A model generated the notes under the pieces. It saw nothing but the letters and a program-made list of their open reading frames with translations. It was not told where the DNA came from and did no database searches. DNA of 64,000 nt from Granulosicoccus sp. Lineage in GTDB: Bacteria; Pseudomonadota; Gammaproteobacteria; Granulosicoccales; Granulosicoccaceae. The stretch lies in the NCBI GenBank assembly GCA_020627685.1, contig JAHDGK010000025.1, forward strand, positions 1-64,000, read 5' to 3'. Each line of letters opens with the position of its first letter. The stretch's first letter is position 1. Positions 17,808 through 24,428 of the stretch are shown here, piece after piece. Both the position numbers and the translations under genes were made by a program.

Positions 17808-17967
17808 TGATCTTCGAACAAAAAATTAGCTTGCAGACACTCTACCTTTTTGGTCACACTGCCGCCCATATTTGTTCGCTATTTTTATCGAACAACGGAC
17901 CCAGTCTTGACCCGTGCAGACACGCAAAGATTGGGAAAGTCTTGTTTCTAATTTTGAGCACATTGAC

Positions 17968-19164
17968 ATGCATCCTGCCCCCTTGCATATGCCTGATATA
18001 CCGGAACGCGGCTTCCCAGAAGCTGAGTTTCAAAGACGTTGTAAAGCCATCCAGCAAAACTTAAGAAATGACAACATAGACGTGCTTTGGCTGAGCACAG
18101 AAGCCGACATTCGCTATGTCACCGGGTTCCTAACTCAGTTTTGGCAAAGCCCAACGCGCCCCTGGTATGTATTGATTCCTCAGTCAGGCAAACCCGTTGC
18201 CATCATTCCAGCCATTGGTGAACAGTGCATGAGTCGCACATGGATTGATGATATTCGCACGTGGTCTTCTCCTGATCCTGTCGATGACGGGGTGTCTTTA
18301 CTGACTGATACGGTCACTGAGCTTGCCGGTAAAAACGCCAGAGTTGGCTTACCAATGGGTAGTGAAACTTACGTGCGCAGCCCGGTAAACGATATTGAAA
18401 AAATTAAGTCCCATTTACCCGAGGCTAACTGGATTGATGCGACTGAGTGTATTCGAGCCGTACGGCATGTTAAATCTGACCTGGAAATTGAAAAGCTACG
18501 CTACGTATGTTCAACGGCTTCTCTGGCTTTTTCACGCGTACCTGAAATTATAAAAGCAGGCATGAGTGAAGCCGATGCTTTTCGAGCGTTTCGTATTGCC
18601 TGCCTTGAGGCCGGGGCCGATGAAGCTGCTTACGTTGTAGGTGCGGCTACACCCGGAGGTTACGAGGATATTATCTCACCACCGGGTAATCATATCGTTA
18701 GCAACGGAGACGTTCTCATCTTGGATACCGGTTGTACCTTCGATGGCTACTTTGCCGACTTTGATCGCAACTATGCTGTCGGGTCGGTAGATGAGAAGAC
18801 GGCCGCAGCGCATCAACGAGTTTGGGATGCCACAGAAGCAGGCTTGGAGCTGATAAAACCCGGAGTGACATGTGCCGAGCTATGCGCAGCCATGCAAGCA
18901 GTGATGCTACCTGGGAATGCGTCAGCAGGTTCTGCAGAAGTGGGCCGCTTGGGTCACGGACTGGGCATACAACTCACAGAGACTCCATCCATTGCACCGT
19001 TCGATAACACCCCTATGCAAGCGGGCATGACTATGACGCTGGAACCCGGGTACACCTATACCGAGGGAAAAATGATGGTTCACGAAGAGAATCTAGTAGT
19101 CACTGAAACCGGTTATGAATTACTCTCCACTAGAGCCGCACGCGACATCCCGATCATTGGATAA
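17968..19164 (+). CDS. M24 family (creatinase/Xaa-Pro-like) metallohydrolase
   Basis: The protein has an N-terminal creatinase-type domain and a C-terminal pita-bread domain. All five dinuclear metal ligands are present: D253, D264 (ILDTGCTFDGYFADFD), H330 (GHGLG), E359 (TLEPGY) and E373/E374 (HEEN). The family hydrolyses C-N bonds in proline peptides, creatine, ectoine and related compounds. The real substrate is not deducible. Start: I prefer ATG 17968 with a weak GAG 10 nt upstream; a GTG at 17914 has no ribosome site. It is followed 8 bp later by a EutA-like gene, a pairing also seen for hydrolase and racemase-family genes in ectoine-use clusters. Confidence 0.85.
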   Translation: MHPAPLHMPDIPERGFPEAEFQRRCKAIQQNLRNDNIDVLWLSTEADIRYVTGFLTQFWQSPTRPWYVLIPQSGKPVAIIPAIGEQCMSRTWIDDIRTWSSPDPVDDGVSLLTDTVTELAGKNARVGLPMGSETYVRSPVNDIEKIKSHLPEANWIDATECIRAVRHVKSDLEIEKLRYVCSTASLAFSRVPEIIKAGMSEADAFRAFRIACLEAGADEAAYVVGAATPGGYEDIISPPGNHIVSNGDVLILDTGCTFDGYFADFDRNYAVGSVDEKTAAAHQRVWDATEAGLELIKPGVTCAELCAAMQAVMLPGNASAGSAEVGRLGHGLGIQLTETPSIAPFDNTPMQAGMTMTLEPGYTYTEGKMMVHEENLVVTETGYELLSTRAARDIPIIG

Positions 19165-19172
19165 CTCACTGT

Positions 19173-19883
19173 ATGAAGCATCTGACATTTGAACTGCAAG
19201 AAGATAATCCCAATGAGCCTGCTGTCGGCTTGGTGGTTTTGCAATCTGATGAAACTATGGAACACGAGCTGCGCCTATGGCTGCCCGATTCTGTTCGTTT
19301 ATTCCATACGCGTATACCGAATGCTCAGGAAGTCACTGCTGAAACCTTGCACCAAATGAAGCAGGAGTTGCCGAAGGTGACTGCCTTACTCCCCGACACC
19401 ACCGACTTCAAAGTTATCGTTTACGGTTGCACCTCGGGTACGACTGTTATTGGTGAACGCGAAGTTGAAGCTGCCGTAAAGTCTATCTTTCCTAATACTG
19501 CAGTTACCAACCCCTTAAGCGCTGTAAAAGCAAATCTAGCCGCTTTAAACGTTAAAAGACTCGCAGTATTAACGCCCTATATCCCGGATGTTTCCAAGGC
19601 TGTTATGGCAGAGATCGAATCGGCAGGCATAGAGATCGTGCGGGCAGCCTCGTACCACGAGATCATGGACAACCGAGTTGCACGCATATCCGGTGACTCC
19701 ATTAACTCAGCAATTGATGAGCTCGGAACACCTCAAGACATCGATGCGATATTTGCATCATGCACCAACCTTAAGATGCATAGCCTCATTGATCAGGCAA
19801 GTGCCAGAGTGGGTGTACCGATAATCAGCAGCAACTCAGCTCTGGCTTGGCATATTCAACACTTACTCAGTCTTTCAAATTAA
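19173..19883 (+). CDS. Asp/Glu racemase-superfamily enzyme, EutA/maleate isomerase-like
   Basis: This 236-residue protein has two catalytic cysteines, C86 in YGCTSGT and C197 in ASCTNL, each in half of a pseudo-symmetric fold. The layout (GLVVLQSDETMEHEL at the start, VTNPLSAVKANLAAL, RLAVLTPY, then SSNSALAWH near the end) resembles EutA, maleate isomerases and arylmalonate decarboxylases. Chemistry is probably racemisation, isomerisation or decarboxylation on an alpha-substituted acid. It follows the M24 gene by 8 bp and is probably co-transcribed. Its stop lies inside the 3' end of the convergent DUF1989 gene (9 bp overlap). Confidence 0.8.
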   Translation: MKHLTFELQEDNPNEPAVGLVVLQSDETMEHELRLWLPDSVRLFHTRIPNAQEVTAETLHQMKQELPKVTALLPDTTDFKVIVYGCTSGTTVIGEREVEAAVKSIFPNTAVTNPLSAVKANLAALNVKRLAVLTPYIPDVSKAVMAEIESAGIEIVRAASYHEIMDNRVARISGDSINSAIDELGTPQDIDAIFASCTNLKMHSLIDQASARVGVPIISSNSALAWHIQHLLSLSN

Positions 19884-20726
19884 ACCGTGAGTGCGATCAT
19901 ACGCACTCAGCGATTCCTCATGAAATTGAGCTAAGGCGTCGTCAGAAGGTTTTAGTATTTCAACATGCAGTGGATAGCACGGTGTTTCATCATCTGAATG
20001 CGAACTGCCGCAGTTGCCACCCGGGCAGGCTGACAAAGCACCCAGTAATTCAATATCAGCTAGAAACTCTATGTAATCGCCGGGCCGAACCGGGCTGGCC
20101 TTCATAAAGTACTGGTGTGTATCCAGTGTAAATCCTGTACACATAAAAACGTTTAATACATCATGGATGTGATGCTCAACTTCTACTGCTGGCAGGTTTA
20201 GCTCTTCGGCCATGGCTCGGGTTAAATTTGAATGACAGCAGTGATGGTAATCGACACCATTCAAAACATGATTGGTGTACGGGTCACATCGGGTACCAAT
20301 AACATCATGGACACCGCCACCATCTTCGTCCCATCCGTACCACTCAAGCGAGTCGTAGGTAATAGTTGCCATCGGGCGCATATTCGGAATGTTCGTCCAT
20401 AAGCGATCGCCTCTAGTTACGTGACTCGCATGCAACTGGCGAGTCTTACCGCTGAAAAATCGCTCCGACAAATTATTCGCATTCCAAAGATTTAAATCTC
20501 CAACTTGTGATCCTTCCACACTCAATATACGAAAGCCGTAGCCCGCAGGCACTCGAAAAGTGGAAGCATCCCTGGGTTTAACAATGACGGTATCGACAAC
20601 GCTAAGCTCTGCACGCCATGCTTCTATAAATGCTTCATTGCGCCGCGGTACTGATTCCACGTTATAACAAACGATAGCCGGAGCTTGTTGTCGGGACTTT
20701 GCGTCTTCAGGAGGCACTGTTGTCAT
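19875..20726 (-). CDS. DUF1989 (urea carboxylase-associated family) protein
   Basis: The 283-residue protein has the DUF1989 layout: a ureidoglycolate-lyase-like cupin-type region (VPAGYGFRILSVEGSQVGDLN), YHHCCHSN, and the C-terminal ACPGGNCGSSH. The cluster of His and Cys suggests metal or cofactor binding. DUF1989 proteins occur beside urea carboxylase and allophanate hydrolase genes, but neither is here. Its ATG overlaps the VWA gene stop by 4 bp, so it is the last gene of a MoxR-VWA-DUF1989 unit. Biochemical role is not established from sequence. Confidence 0.82.
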   Translation of the reverse strand: MTTVPPEDAKSRQQAPAIVCYNVESVPRRNEAFIEAWRAELSVVDTVIVKPRDASTFRVPAGYGFRILSVEGSQVGDLNLWNANNLSERFFSGKTRQLHASHVTRGDRLWTNIPNMRPMATITYDSLEWYGWDEDGGGVHDVIGTRCDPYTNHVLNGVDYHHCCHSNLTRAMAEELNLPAVEVEHHIHDVLNVFMCTGFTLDTHQYFMKASPVRPGDYIEFLADIELLGALSACPGGNCGSSHSDDETPCYPLHVEILKPSDDALAQFHEESLSAYDRTHGLI

Positions 20727-21859
20727 GATAATAGTTCTTGTTCCAAAGTGATCAGACTTTCCAAATTATGAGCACTGCAATAACGATCGACATAGGGTAC
20801 GACAGGATCCATGTATTTATTGACCTCGCCTTCTTCGTACCTGCCGAGCAGTGGGTTCACCCAAATGAGTTTACCTGCTCTACGGTGAATAATGTCGACT
20901 CGTTTAGCAAGCTCCTGCGGACTGGAAGTATCACAACCATCACTGAATATTAAAACGGTTGTTTTGGTATCTACGCAGCGCTTAAGGTGCTCGGCGTTAA
21001 ACGTATCCAGTGATTCCGCTATACGAGTTCCACCTAACCAGCCTTTACCCAATCGGTTCAGCACTCGTTCGAAATCCTCTTCACTCAGGCGAGCATGCCC
21101 CTGACCCAGTTCAGACAAATCGGTATTGAACACAAAGGCATCGGAGCGTTGAAAAACAGTCATTAAAATTCTTGTAAAACGCATGAATAATCGTGCGTAG
21201 ATATCCATGGATTGACTGATATCCAGTAGCAACACAAATCGCCTTGGCTTAGGTTTTTTGCGACGGTAAGACAACTCAATTGGCTTACCGCTGTACCGTA
21301 ATGAATGGCGCAACGATTTTCTCAAATCCACTTGTGTTCCGCGATGCGATACGACATTGCGCCGGGAAACCCTTTTTCGGGCTCGCTTTGCAATGCGATC
21401 AATAAGCTGCTCAATCATGCGCATTTGATAAGCATCGAAAACAAATCGGAAATCGGCTAACGACAAGGCTTTAAAGTCACCCGCGCCTAGCGATTCTTCC
21501 TTTTGACTTTGCTTCTCAGAGGTTCCAGCCAATCCGATTAAACGTTGTTTTCCGGAGGATGCGATGTCTAAGGTTCTATCGGTGTCTTTCTCAACGGGGT
21601 CTGCAATGAAAGGTTCTCCATCAGCATTCCAAAAGAGATCAAACAAGGCATCGTAACGATTCCAGTCTTTTGGGCACCGACATACACATGCCCTACTCGC
21701 TTGTTTGTAGTGTTGACGGGTCAGTAGAAGCTTGGACGTTGCAATGTGTTGAAGGTCGAGCAAGGAACCTGTGTCAACACGTAACTGGTTCGCTCGCAGA
21801 AATTCTGCAAAGGCATTTATTCGATGCGGAGTATCTGGAGTGACTGCGAATGCGTTCAC
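20723..21859 (-). CDS. VWA domain protein, CoxE-like
   Basis: A 378-residue cytoplasmic protein. The N-terminal half is helical and contains PKDWNRYDALFDLFW, typical of CoxE-like proteins, with a CVCRC cysteine cluster at 58-62. The C-terminal von Willebrand A domain has a full MIDAS: DISQS (D213, S215, S217), T278 in GGTRI and D306 in FSDGCD. Such proteins work with MoxR AAA+ ATPases to mature metal centres or assemble complexes. The GTG start overlaps the MoxR stop (GTGA) and the stop overlaps DUF1989 (ATGA). No carbon monoxide dehydrogenase genes are near. Confidence 0.88.
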   Translation of the reverse strand: MNAFAVTPDTPHRINAFAEFLRANQLRVDTGSLLDLQHIATSKLLLTRQHYKQASRACVCRCPKDWNRYDALFDLFWNADGEPFIADPVEKDTDRTLDIASSGKQRLIGLAGTSEKQSQKEESLGAGDFKALSLADFRFVFDAYQMRMIEQLIDRIAKRARKRVSRRNVVSHRGTQVDLRKSLRHSLRYSGKPIELSYRRKKPKPRRFVLLLDISQSMDIYARLFMRFTRILMTVFQRSDAFVFNTDLSELGQGHARLSEEDFERVLNRLGKGWLGGTRIAESLDTFNAEHLKRCVDTKTTVLIFSDGCDTSSPQELAKRVDIIHRRAGKLIWVNPLLGRYEEGEVNKYMDPVVPYVDRYCSAHNLESLITLEQELLS

Positions 21860-22725
21860 GACATTTTGTGTTGATTAGGAAAGAGTAGTTCGCCATTGCT
21901 ACTTTTCAGGTAATTGAGATCTTCACGCGTTTTGATTAGCGCGGATAAGCTCTGTTCTACTTTATCTTGATGCTTGTATAAGTCATCTACATTCATGTGC
22001 ATAAGCGACGCTGCCCAATCCAACGTCTCGGCAATTCCCGGCGATTTTCGTAAGCTCTCCGAACGTAGTCTTTGCACCACTTTCACCAGTTGCCCGGCCA
22101 GTTTAGAATCAATGTCCGGGATTCTCGCCGAAACAATTTCAAGCTCACGTTGCTCGTCTGGATAGTCGAGATAATGATAGAGACAGCGACGCCTGAGTGC
22201 ATCGCTAAGCTCCCTCACACCATTGGATGTCAGGATGACTCTGGGCTTAGACGATGCCTTGAATGTTCCCAATTCAGGAATGCTGATTTGGAAATCTGAA
22301 AGCACCTCGAGTAGCAGGGCTTCGAATTCTTCATCGGCGCGATCGATTTCATCAATTAAAAGGACCACCGGTGTGTCACTCGAAATCGCGTTAAGCAATG
22401 GTCTTCTGATTAAAAAGTCATCGCTGTACAGAGTTTTCTTAAGCTGCTCTGGATCGGCACTACCCGCTAGTTGAATGGCCAGCAACTGTCGCTGATAGTC
22501 CCAGTCATACAAAGCATGCTGCGCATCAAGCCCCTCATAGCACTGCAGGCGAATCAGCTCGCTGTTGGTGACAGTCGCCAAGCACTTAGACACTTCGGTC
22601 TTTCCAACGCCTGCCTCCCCTTCAATCAGCAAAGGCTTGTTCAGAGAATGCGCCAGTTCAATCGCCAACACCAACGACTCATCCGCCACATACCCCTCTG
22701 CCCTAAATCCCGCCTCTATCCCCAC
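21856..22725 (-). CDS. MoxR family AAA+ ATPase (CoxD-like)
   Basis: The 289-residue ATPase has Walker A GEAGVGKT (36-43), Walker B LLIDEID (122-128), sensor 1 ILTSNG and the RRRCLYHY arginine region. MoxR ATPases remodel or activate partner proteins together with VWA proteins, here the next gene. The GTG start has a G-rich AGGGGGG ribosome site at about 5 nt. It is the first gene of the MoxR-VWA-DUF1989 unit. Only 14 bp upstream of the start lies the tip of a 284-bp inverted-repeat element, so the promoter must be inside that element. Confidence 0.92.
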   Translation of the reverse strand: MGIEAGFRAEGYVADESLVLAIELAHSLNKPLLIEGEAGVGKTEVSKCLATVTNSELIRLQCYEGLDAQHALYDWDYQRQLLAIQLAGSADPEQLKKTLYSDDFLIRRPLLNAISSDTPVVLLIDEIDRADEEFEALLLEVLSDFQISIPELGTFKASSKPRVILTSNGVRELSDALRRRCLYHYLDYPDEQRELEIVSARIPDIDSKLAGQLVKVVQRLRSESLRKSPGIAETLDWAASLMHMNVDDLYKHQDKVEQSLSALIKTREDLNYLKSSNGELLFPNQHKMS

Positions 22726-22739
22726 AACACCCCCCTAAT

Positions 22740-22779
22740 CGGGTCGGACCACGATAACCAACTGATATTCCATCATAAA
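22740..22779 (+). repeat. Left terminal inverted repeat
   Basis: The outer 14 bp are identical (reverse complement) to 23010-23023 and the following 26 bp are partly conserved. It carries TATGAT on the minus strand, a possible -10 for the MoxR operon, but no convincing -35 was found 15-19 nt upstream. Confidence 0.75.
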
Positions 22780-22964
22780 CTCTAGGAAAGCAGGACTTTT
22801 TGTTTCTTAAATCAAGGTTTTTTGCGTTTGCGTGGGCGTTTTAAGAGGGGCAAAAAAGCCTAAGCCCTATAGAACTACGAATACAGAAACCTAAGTGCAA
22901 CAGCACTCCTGTAATTAGCTTAAAGCAGTAAATTTGGGCCTAAAATATGGAAATAAGCGTGTAT

Positions 22965-22991
22965 TTGGTGCGTACTATCACTATTTATAAT
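22965..22991 (+). promoter_or_regulatory. Possible promoter of the M20 peptidase gene
   Basis: TTGGTG and a perfect TATAAT are separated by 15 nt, slightly short of optimal. The predicted transcript would begin about 27 nt before the ATG at 23025, entirely from within the inverted-repeat element. Confidence 0.4.
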
Positions 22992-23023
22992 GATTAATCA
23001 ACAACCTAGCGTGGTCCGACCCG
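22984..23023 (-). repeat. Right terminal inverted repeat
   Basis: This is the mirror copy of 22740-22779. It ends one base before the ATG of the M20 peptidase gene, so the repeat occupies the place where a Shine-Dalgarno sequence would be. Confidence 0.75.
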
Positions 23024-23024
23024 G

Positions 23025-24428
23025 ATGATGAGTGAATTGGAGCGAGTATTGGAGGCTGTGGATGGCGGGATGCCGGAGGCTTTGGGGCGTTTGTTTGAGC
23101 TGTTGAAGATCGACAGTATTTCGACGGATCCTGCTTATAAGGAATCTTGTTTGAATGCGGCGAACTGGTTAGTGGATGAGCTCAAGAACATAGGTTTTGA
23201 GGCAGCCAGACACGACACACCCGGTCATCCCATGGTAGTTGGTCATCAAAAGGGTACAAACAAAGACGCACCGCATCTTCTTTTCTACGGACACTATGAT
23301 GTCCAACCTGTTGACCCTCTTGAGCTTTGGAACACACCTCCGTTTGAACCTGCCATAGAAGAAACACCTGCCGGAAAAGTCATTCGCGGTCGTGGAGCCG
23401 CCGATGATAAAGGGCAGCTCATGACCTTTGTTGAGGCGTGTCGTTACTGGAGACAAGTGACGGGCTCGTTGCCTGCCAACGTGAGCCTATTTTTTGAAGG
23501 TGAAGAAGAAAGCGGCTCTCCTTCACTGATCCCGTTCCTTGAAGAGAATAAACAGCAACTGAAGGCCGACCTTGCATTGGTTTGCGATACTGGTATGTGG
23601 GACAGCAACACCCCCACTATATCCACCATGCTCCGAGGTATGGTTGGGGAAGAAGTCACCATCACAGGACCCAGCCTAGACTTGCACTCAGGCATGTACG
23701 GTGGCCCTGCCATCAACCCTATCCGTGTGCTCAATCGAATACTGGCCGACCTGCACGATGACAATGGTCAGATCACGCTTCCAGGGTTCTATGACGGTGT
23801 CCCAGAATTGTCAGACAGTATCAAACAACAGTGGTCCTCACTCAATCACGACGGGCAAGCATTTTTAGAGTCTGTCGGTTTGTCAGAGCCTGCAGGTGAA
23901 AAGGGTTACAGCGTGCTGGAACAAATCTGGGCAAGACCGACCTGCGACGTGAATGGTATTTCCGGCGGTTACACCGGCGAAGGATTTAAAACCGTTCTGC
24001 CCTCAACGGCAACAGCCAAGGTAAGTTTTAGATTGGTTGGAGACCAAGACCCGGATGCCATTCAAAAAGCCTTTTATCAACATGTTAGAGATCGGTTACC
24101 CCCTGATTGCAGCGTCAGTTTTAAAACCAAGGACGGATCGAAAGCCACCGTCATGCAAGTCGACTCTGTACCGTTTAGACAAGCCCAACGAGCGTTAAGT
24201 GATGAATGGGAAAACGACGCAGTTTACGCAGGCTGCGGCGGGTCAATTCCAGTAGTTGGGCATATAAAGACCATTCTCGAAATGGATAGCCTGTTAGTAG
24301 GCTTTGGTCTTGACGACGACGCTATCCACTCACCCAATGAAAAATATTCACTTAAAAGTTTTCACAAAGGTATTCGAAGCTGGGTTCGTATATTGGACGC
24401 ACTGTCCAAGAACCAGTCAAACATTTAA
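23025..24428 (+). CDS. M20 family dipeptidase/amidohydrolase
   Basis: A 467-residue zinc exopeptidase of the M20 dipeptidase group. Metal and catalytic residues: H90 and D92 (YGHYDVQP), D127 (RGAADDKG), E160/E161 (EGEEESGS), plus LHSGMYGG in the dimerisation or catalytic region and a late histidine in DDDAIHSPNEKY. It probably cleaves dipeptides or N-acyl amino acids in the cytoplasm. Start: two ATGs in tandem directly follow the inverted-repeat tip, and there is no Shine-Dalgarno sequence upstream; family alignment still places the N-terminus here. A 15-bp hairpin lies downstream. Confidence 0.92.
   Translation: MMSELERVLEAVDGGMPEALGRLFELLKIDSISTDPAYKESCLNAANWLVDELKNIGFEAARHDTPGHPMVVGHQKGTNKDAPHLLFYGHYDVQPVDPLELWNTPPFEPAIEETPAGKVIRGRGAADDKGQLMTFVEACRYWRQVTGSLPANVSLFFEGEEESGSPSLIPFLEENKQQLKADLALVCDTGMWDSNTPTISTMLRGMVGEEVTITGPSLDLHSGMYGGPAINPIRVLNRILADLHDDNGQITLPGFYDGVPELSDSIKQQWSSLNHDGQAFLESVGLSEPAGEKGYSVLEQIWARPTCDVNGISGGYTGEGFKTVLPSTATAKVSFRLVGDQDPDAIQKAFYQHVRDRLPPDCSVSFKTKDGSKATVMQVDSVPFRQAQRALSDEWENDAVYAGCGGSIPVVGHIKTILEMDSLLVGFGLDDDAIHSPNEKYSLKSFHKGIRSWVRILDALSKNQSNI

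Follow-up and report, generated by a model that had tools for sequence, protein, structure and literature searches.

The window, i.e., the whole stretch of 64,000 nucleotides analysed, contains a divergent gene pair encoding a MoxR/MadB-like AAA ATPase and an M20 dipeptidase-like peptidase, and the entire spacer between the two genes is a 284-bp element. Its ends are 14-bp perfect inverted repeats (CGGGTCGGACCACG at 22740-22753 and the exact reverse complement at 23010-23023); the outer 40 bp of each end are 70% complementary, and 204 nt separate the two 40-bp arms. Two outward -10-like hexamers, TATGAT and TATAAT, each lie exactly 32 nt from the tip. The perfect tips, partial symmetry to about 40 bp and the equally placed hexamers had been reported in a preliminary description of the locus, as had the 14 bp between the element and the MoxR GTG start (at 22725). 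The 1 bp reported on the other side is valid for the listed M20 ATG (at 23025) only: because ATGAGTGA is conserved in relatives, the true M20 start is probably 3 bp further downstream, at 23028, 4 bp from the element. The features of the locus are the following:

21856..22725, minus strand: MoxR/MadB-like AAA ATPase, left neighbour (family profile matches)
22740..22753, minus strand: left tip, outward CGTGGTCCGACCCG toward MoxR (repeat search)
22741..22846, plus strand: left 106-bp arm, with the tip followed by a phased A/T module that covers arm positions 30-106 (inner score 16.6, from a profile built on other loci)
22772..22777, minus strand: outward -10-like TATGAT, part of a phased A/T tract and not typical of the family
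22847..22916, no strand: middle between the arms, unconserved (pairwise identity about 0.25-0.5)
22917..23022, minus strand: right 106-bp arm, inverted (inner score 18.3, same profile)
22919..22935, plus strand: candidate extended -10 region for M20, locus-conserved, as suggested by the orthologue alignment
22986..22991, plus strand: outward TATAAT at 32 nt from the right tip (orthologous elements do not conserve it)
23010..23023, plus strand: right tip, outward CGTGGTCCGACCCG toward M20 (repeat search)
23025..24428, plus strand: M20 dipeptidase-like peptidase, right neighbour (family profile matches)

The candidate extended -10 region reads CTTAAATGCMATAATTC in most orthologues and CTTAAAGCAGTAAATTT in the window. 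Perfect 14-bp inverted repeats within 300 bp occur four times in the 64-kb window, against 0-1 in shuffles; such a repeat is not rare alone, and the weight therefore rests on comparative evidence. Indeed, when an inner-arm profile was trained without any sequence of the M20 locus, the two ends of the element ranked first and second in the 64 kb.

No second copy of the full 284 bp was found in the 4.93-Mb genome: only the tips match elsewhere, which excludes full-length homologous copies. The tips do recur, with 16 occurrences of TGGTCCGACCC in the own genome against 0 for the reversed control (arm counts come from pattern searches). They are located upstream of argG and rpsP, after moaA, urtE, and typA, and between the convergent KDPG-aldolase and GST genes. 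Among Granulosicoccus genomes, TGGTCCGACCC is found 4-55 times where a close homologue of the transposase described below is present and 0-3 times in the others. The outer edge has a median distance of 13.5 bp from a gene end, with 78% within 25 bp (40 tips with arms or close context, the null being a simple uniform model); this closeness arises in part because the elements entered short gene-to-gene gaps. Between two convergent genes, at L037:7738-7786 (contig C40 of the own genome, G000), lies a perfect palindrome of ~50 bp made of two tips around GAAAGTTAGC..GCTAACTTTC. This is a minimal, arm-less tip pair for which a real hairpin is possible, unlike the armed copies; the orthologous site is found in G006 (C69) and probably also in G014 (C272), and a similar unit adjoins typA.

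One inverted tip pair, 1.1 kb apart, brackets a 248-aa open reading frame (L040:7523-8269) located between a SPOR-domain gene and hrpA. The encoded protein matches the Pfam family Y1_Tnp (51 bits), its best NCBIfam match is REP_Tyr_transpos (70.9 bits, below the cut-off of 80), and H67/H69 (HUH) and Y127 are invariant in ten homologues. The best match of its AlphaFold model (pLDDT 90) is the E. coli REP transposase 4er8, relative to which the model has about 90 extra C-terminal residues. No Pfam HTH was detected in it at E<=1, no solved homologue was found by sequence, and no plasmid-borne close homologue covered 80% of the query. The enzyme partnered with the tips is a HUH-class tyrosine transposase of the TIRYT type rather than a DDE enzyme.

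The gene is present once per genome, with at least 52% identity, in most Granulosicoccus species (57 relatives searched). Tips bracket or adjoin it in 13 genomes and, in most of the 13 with exact tips there, inverted tips are found on both sides; in G014 the second tip is degenerate. In the genomes with the most diverged transposases (G008, G019, and G026), the gene is kept near hrpA and there are no tips or recognisable arms. The own genome also carries a second, distant Y1 transposase gene (G000:C56:41234-41629, 326-aa frame, 30% identical).

Local alignments between unrelated copies repeatedly end near 105 bp from the edge. Coherently, 63 arms align gap-free from the outer edge and information stops at position 106. 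Arm positions 1-28 form a sharp tip, GGGTCGGACCAYSRTAASYNNTTGATTT, followed up to position 106 by alternating A/T and G/C blocks in which the A/T fraction oscillates between about 0.92 and 0.25 every 10.7 bp. Spectral power at 10.7 bp was 1.98; shuffles reached at most 0.035 and random genomic sets at most 0.032. In a leave-one-out analysis, 59/63 arms followed the phase template, compared to 0.9% of the controls. The phase is the same in stop-facing and start-facing arms, and the pattern is therefore that of the element rather than of promoters. The repeating unit is the ~106-bp arm, which also occurs singly, and not the 14-bp terminal repeat.

We found no covariation at the CTTAAA...TTTAAG dyad (complementarity 0.473 observed vs 0.458 expected from the columns), and single-strand folding of the window arms did not exceed that of shuffles. 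A hairpin or cruciform at the dyad is rejected on these grounds, as is a structured RNA of a known kind (Rfam gave no match at E<=1). The lack of covariation and of extra single-strand folding favours reading the arm as a putative double-stranded site. One arm, located after urtE (L039:7419-7524), differs from the other arms tested in folding strongly as a single strand (z -5.8); it carries CCCCAGTA..TACTGGGG right behind the tip.

Sites without the element were found at three loci. The gap between the SPOR-domain gene and hrpA measures 13-23 bp in G004, G005, G011, and G016, and it is filled by the 1.1-kb TIRtron in the element-bearing clade. Upstream of argG, the gap is 60 bp in G001 (TAAcgc|ggggggatgtttgttagactg), with no element, and 57-148 bp in other genomes. 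Seven genomes have an element there, 302-466 bp long in the six with the upstream gene on the same contig; the argG elements with extra arms are longer, and 58-88 bp of flank remains. No target duplication was seen at argG. At the M20 locus of G008 and G019, DUF1989 and M20 diverge with no element, and their aligned coding ends are about 102-105 bp apart, which makes a spacer of ~100 bp. The element fills the DUF1989-M20 spacer with 11-12 bp left in G012, G018, and G024, and with 64 bp left in G006; in G000, G001, G007, and G023 DUF1989 and the element are separated by a MoxR-VWA pair.

Since relatives have the DUF1989-M20 spacer without the element, the latter appears to have entered by insertion and come to occupy the space between the divergent genes. 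The M20 locus also lost about 90 bp of native spacer, and for this reason the event was not a simple insertion. The MoxR-VWA (CoxE-like) pair, at 20723-22725 in the window, is missing at this position in G006, G012, G018, and G024; it appears to have been gained or lost, with an element tip as one boundary. Beside it, 17914-20726 encodes an M24 peptidase similar to the ectoine hydrolase DoeA, an EutA-like Asp/Glu racemase, and DUF1989, which would form an ectoine- or urea-type catabolic neighbourhood, with family matches below the equivalog cut-offs.

Both tips are kept at the M20 locus in seven relatives, where M20 is 78-85% identical; in pairwise comparisons, the tips have an identity of 0.82-0.86, as against 0.25-0.6 for the interior. 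Every site of the own genome appears matched in the nearest relative, G006 (a non-exhaustive comparison of gene context), and consequently there is no sign of present activity. The element family is thus old and slow-moving, its mobility being inferred from empty sites rather than from observed transposition.

We regard it as probable that the 284-bp segment is an old non-autonomous terminal inverted repeat (TIR) element belonging to a TIRYT/RAYT-like tyrosine-transposase family, with the 1.1-kb TIRtron as the autonomous or source copy. Segment and TIRtron alike terminate in inverted ~106-bp arms. The preliminary description had proposed a MITE-like insertion. Of this proposal, an inserted inverted-repeat element with other copies and empty sites holds, while a recently mobile, homogeneous MITE does not. 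It had also taken conserved tips with a diverged interior as a sign of a regulatory palindrome pair; this pattern is present in the seven relatives, but the other copies and the empty sites outweigh it. Each arm pair may or may not have moved as one unit, because the interiors of different elements are not homologous and single arms exist. On the same observations, two single arms could have been inserted independently on either side of the native promoter region, so that the 284 bp would never have been one mobile unit: single arms are common, interiors are unrelated between copies, and G017 has the M20-side tip only. We consider this rather doubtful, since paired arms recur at a length of about 280-330 bp in several loci, both tips are present or absent together at argG, and no native spacer sequence is recognisable within the element at the M20 locus.

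A regulatory reading, with the tips as an operator pair (GGTCNGACC) for a GntR/FadR-type regulator over two divergent operons and no mobile element at all, draws on GGTC-N-GACC, which resembles the FadR/FCD operator core, on the 11 FCD regulators of the genome, and on the conservation of tips at orthologous promoters whose interior diverges. It is very improbable and largely refuted by the 3'-end locations and the linkage to the transposase: many tips follow stop codons or sit between convergent genes instead of marking the promoters of a regulon, and tips flank the transposase gene and track it across genomes. Moreover, clean empty sites exist, and tips carry the 106-bp arm even in other phyla. 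A classical REP/REPIN-type element, i.e., single-strand hairpins recognised by a RAYT, fits the single-copy Y1 transposase whose best family is REP_Tyr_transpos, the cognate repeats arranged as inverted pairs near gene ends, and the palindromic minimal copy between convergent genes. Against it, there is neither a GTAG foot nor a stem, the window arms fold no better than shuffles, and the unit is 106 bp and helically phased, compared with 20-40-bp REPs; we judge it quite improbable.

The phased arms could also be strong DNA gyrase sites resembling BIME-2 of E. coli, which RAYT-type elements bear or have been selected to bear, with supercoiling control as the retained function. The E. coli gyrase motif spans 130 bp, with two 47-bp flanks and phased G/C modelled at 10.7 bp per turn, and the RAYT-linked BIME-2 repeats bind gyrase (PMC6379681). 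Both resemble our arms in being long, degenerate sequences whose G/C and A/T content is helically phased; here, the phasing extends over about 77 bp and the arms adjoin gene ends. However, the comparison covered the phasing, and the layout differs: the phasing runs for 77 bp on one side of a sharp 28-bp tip, not 47+36+47. In addition, the arms stay next to the transposase in several phyla, a conservation that supercoiling control in the host would not by itself require. Gyrase sites are an unlikely explanation.

For the TIR element, the arms are most likely double-stranded wrapping or bending sites for the transposase or a host complex, since a 10.7-bp phasing over seven turns resembles a double-stranded wrap or bend site. 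The transposase would act at or near the tip, and the phased arm would be double-stranded DNA wrapped or bent around a protein, either a transposase multimer or a host factor (for example GyrA-type wrapping), setting the ends in register for tip cleavage. Y1/TnpA-REP enzymes recognise a folded single-stranded REP with a GTAG foot (PMC8266576). A point against such a wrapping mechanism is that Y1/HUH enzymes are known to act on single-stranded hairpins, which are absent from the arms. If true, phased, double-stranded, hairpin-less ends would represent a different recognition mode within the HUH class, and would tie such elements mechanistically to gyrase or nucleoid wrapping.

At the M20 locus, the insertion would have replaced the native divergent spacer, so that the left-hand operon and M20 would now both have their promoters within the arms; after insertion, selection would have kept tips and phase while the remainder drifted. 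The promoters of both flanking genes are very probably inside the element because, in several species, the spacer outside it amounts to only ~11-18 bp. The equal 32-nt spacing of the -10-like hexamers is rejected as a family feature: TANNNT occurs at that position in only 11% of the 63 arms, and the position falls in an A/T tract common to all of them. The locus offers a testable case of an element replacing a divergent promoter.

RAYT/TnpA-REP proteins are the best-known domesticated bacterial transposases. Our element shares with REP/REPIN systems of E. coli and Pseudomonas the Y1 HUH fold, with 4er8 as best match, the single-copy, vertically kept transposase, and the cognate inverted pairs at gene ends. 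It differs in having long phased arms, a low copy number (about 16), and neither a GTAG/GTGG tag nor a palindromic stem or conserved hairpin. With MITEs (for example NEMIS, RUP, and ERIC) it shares a small, gene-less, intergenic inverted-repeat insert with an autonomous relative and a clean insertion relative to empty sites, apart from the native spacer lost at the M20 locus. Nevertheless, its interior is unshared, several near-identical full-length copies are lacking, no target duplication was seen, its partner is HUH and not DDE, and single arms occur too.

The sequence comparisons support TIRYT/TIRtron (Di Nocera 2013, PMC3733652) as the closest described kind, which corresponds to subclass 2.1 in Quentin 2018 (PMC6006769). 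As in that class, a RAYT-like Y1 HUH transposase gene lies between inverted repeats that are not GTAG REPs, and the repeats form a dispersed family (16 tips vs 0 in the control); TIR families have moderate copy numbers, occur as single, paired, or grouped repeats, and usually go with one gene per repeat family. The motif GGGGWSAS, which PMC3733652 describes as common to some but not all TIRs, is absent here, the tip being GGGTCGGACC in the own genome and GGGTCAGACC or GGGACRGRCC in others. Subclass 2.1 proteins typically have a C-terminal HTH; our transposase has the ~90-residue C-terminal extra part and gave no Pfam HTH match at E<=1, and we leave it without a subclass. We found no description of 106-bp ends with 10.7-bp phased A/T in the open-access main-text passages searched.

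The same arms were also found outside Granulosicoccus. Homologous transposases (about 46-63% identical) have them on their flanks, correctly placed and oriented; such loci occur in another family of the class (G036), in Aminicenantes, in Desulfobacterota, and in other gammaproteobacteria; these loci derive mostly from metagenome-assembled genomes. Their inner-module scores are mostly 15-50, against a background with mean -41, standard deviation 13, and 99.9th percentile 1.6; Thioalkalivibrio XN8 and two other gammaproteobacterial loci have a weak or one-sided inner-module score. Two Aminicenantes loci (L163 and L168) keep the same inner module under a different tip, which suggests that the phased module is a deeper feature than the tip. 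It is conceivable, and we propose it tentatively, that these elements represent a widespread HUH/Y1 branch whose ends are double-stranded phased wrapping sites of ~106 bp rather than single-strand hairpins, conserved across phyla despite changes of the tip and fixed in Granulosicoccus as divergent promoters or gene boundaries.

Some sites carry more than a single element end. Tandem or nested arms and tips occur at L083, L084, L085, L132, L133, and the argG site of G012, which suggests repeated insertion into or beside existing ends. In the TIRtron, the left tip lies a few bp past the SPOR stop and the right tip abuts the hrpA codons directly. In several species the right tip can supply the hrpA start (ATG/GTG then GTC CGA CCC): at L040:8388-8402 and in its orthologues it overlaps this start, giving an M/V-V-R-P N-terminus. 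A similar tip-encoded start, MMVRP, may exist at L042:6441 (minus strand).
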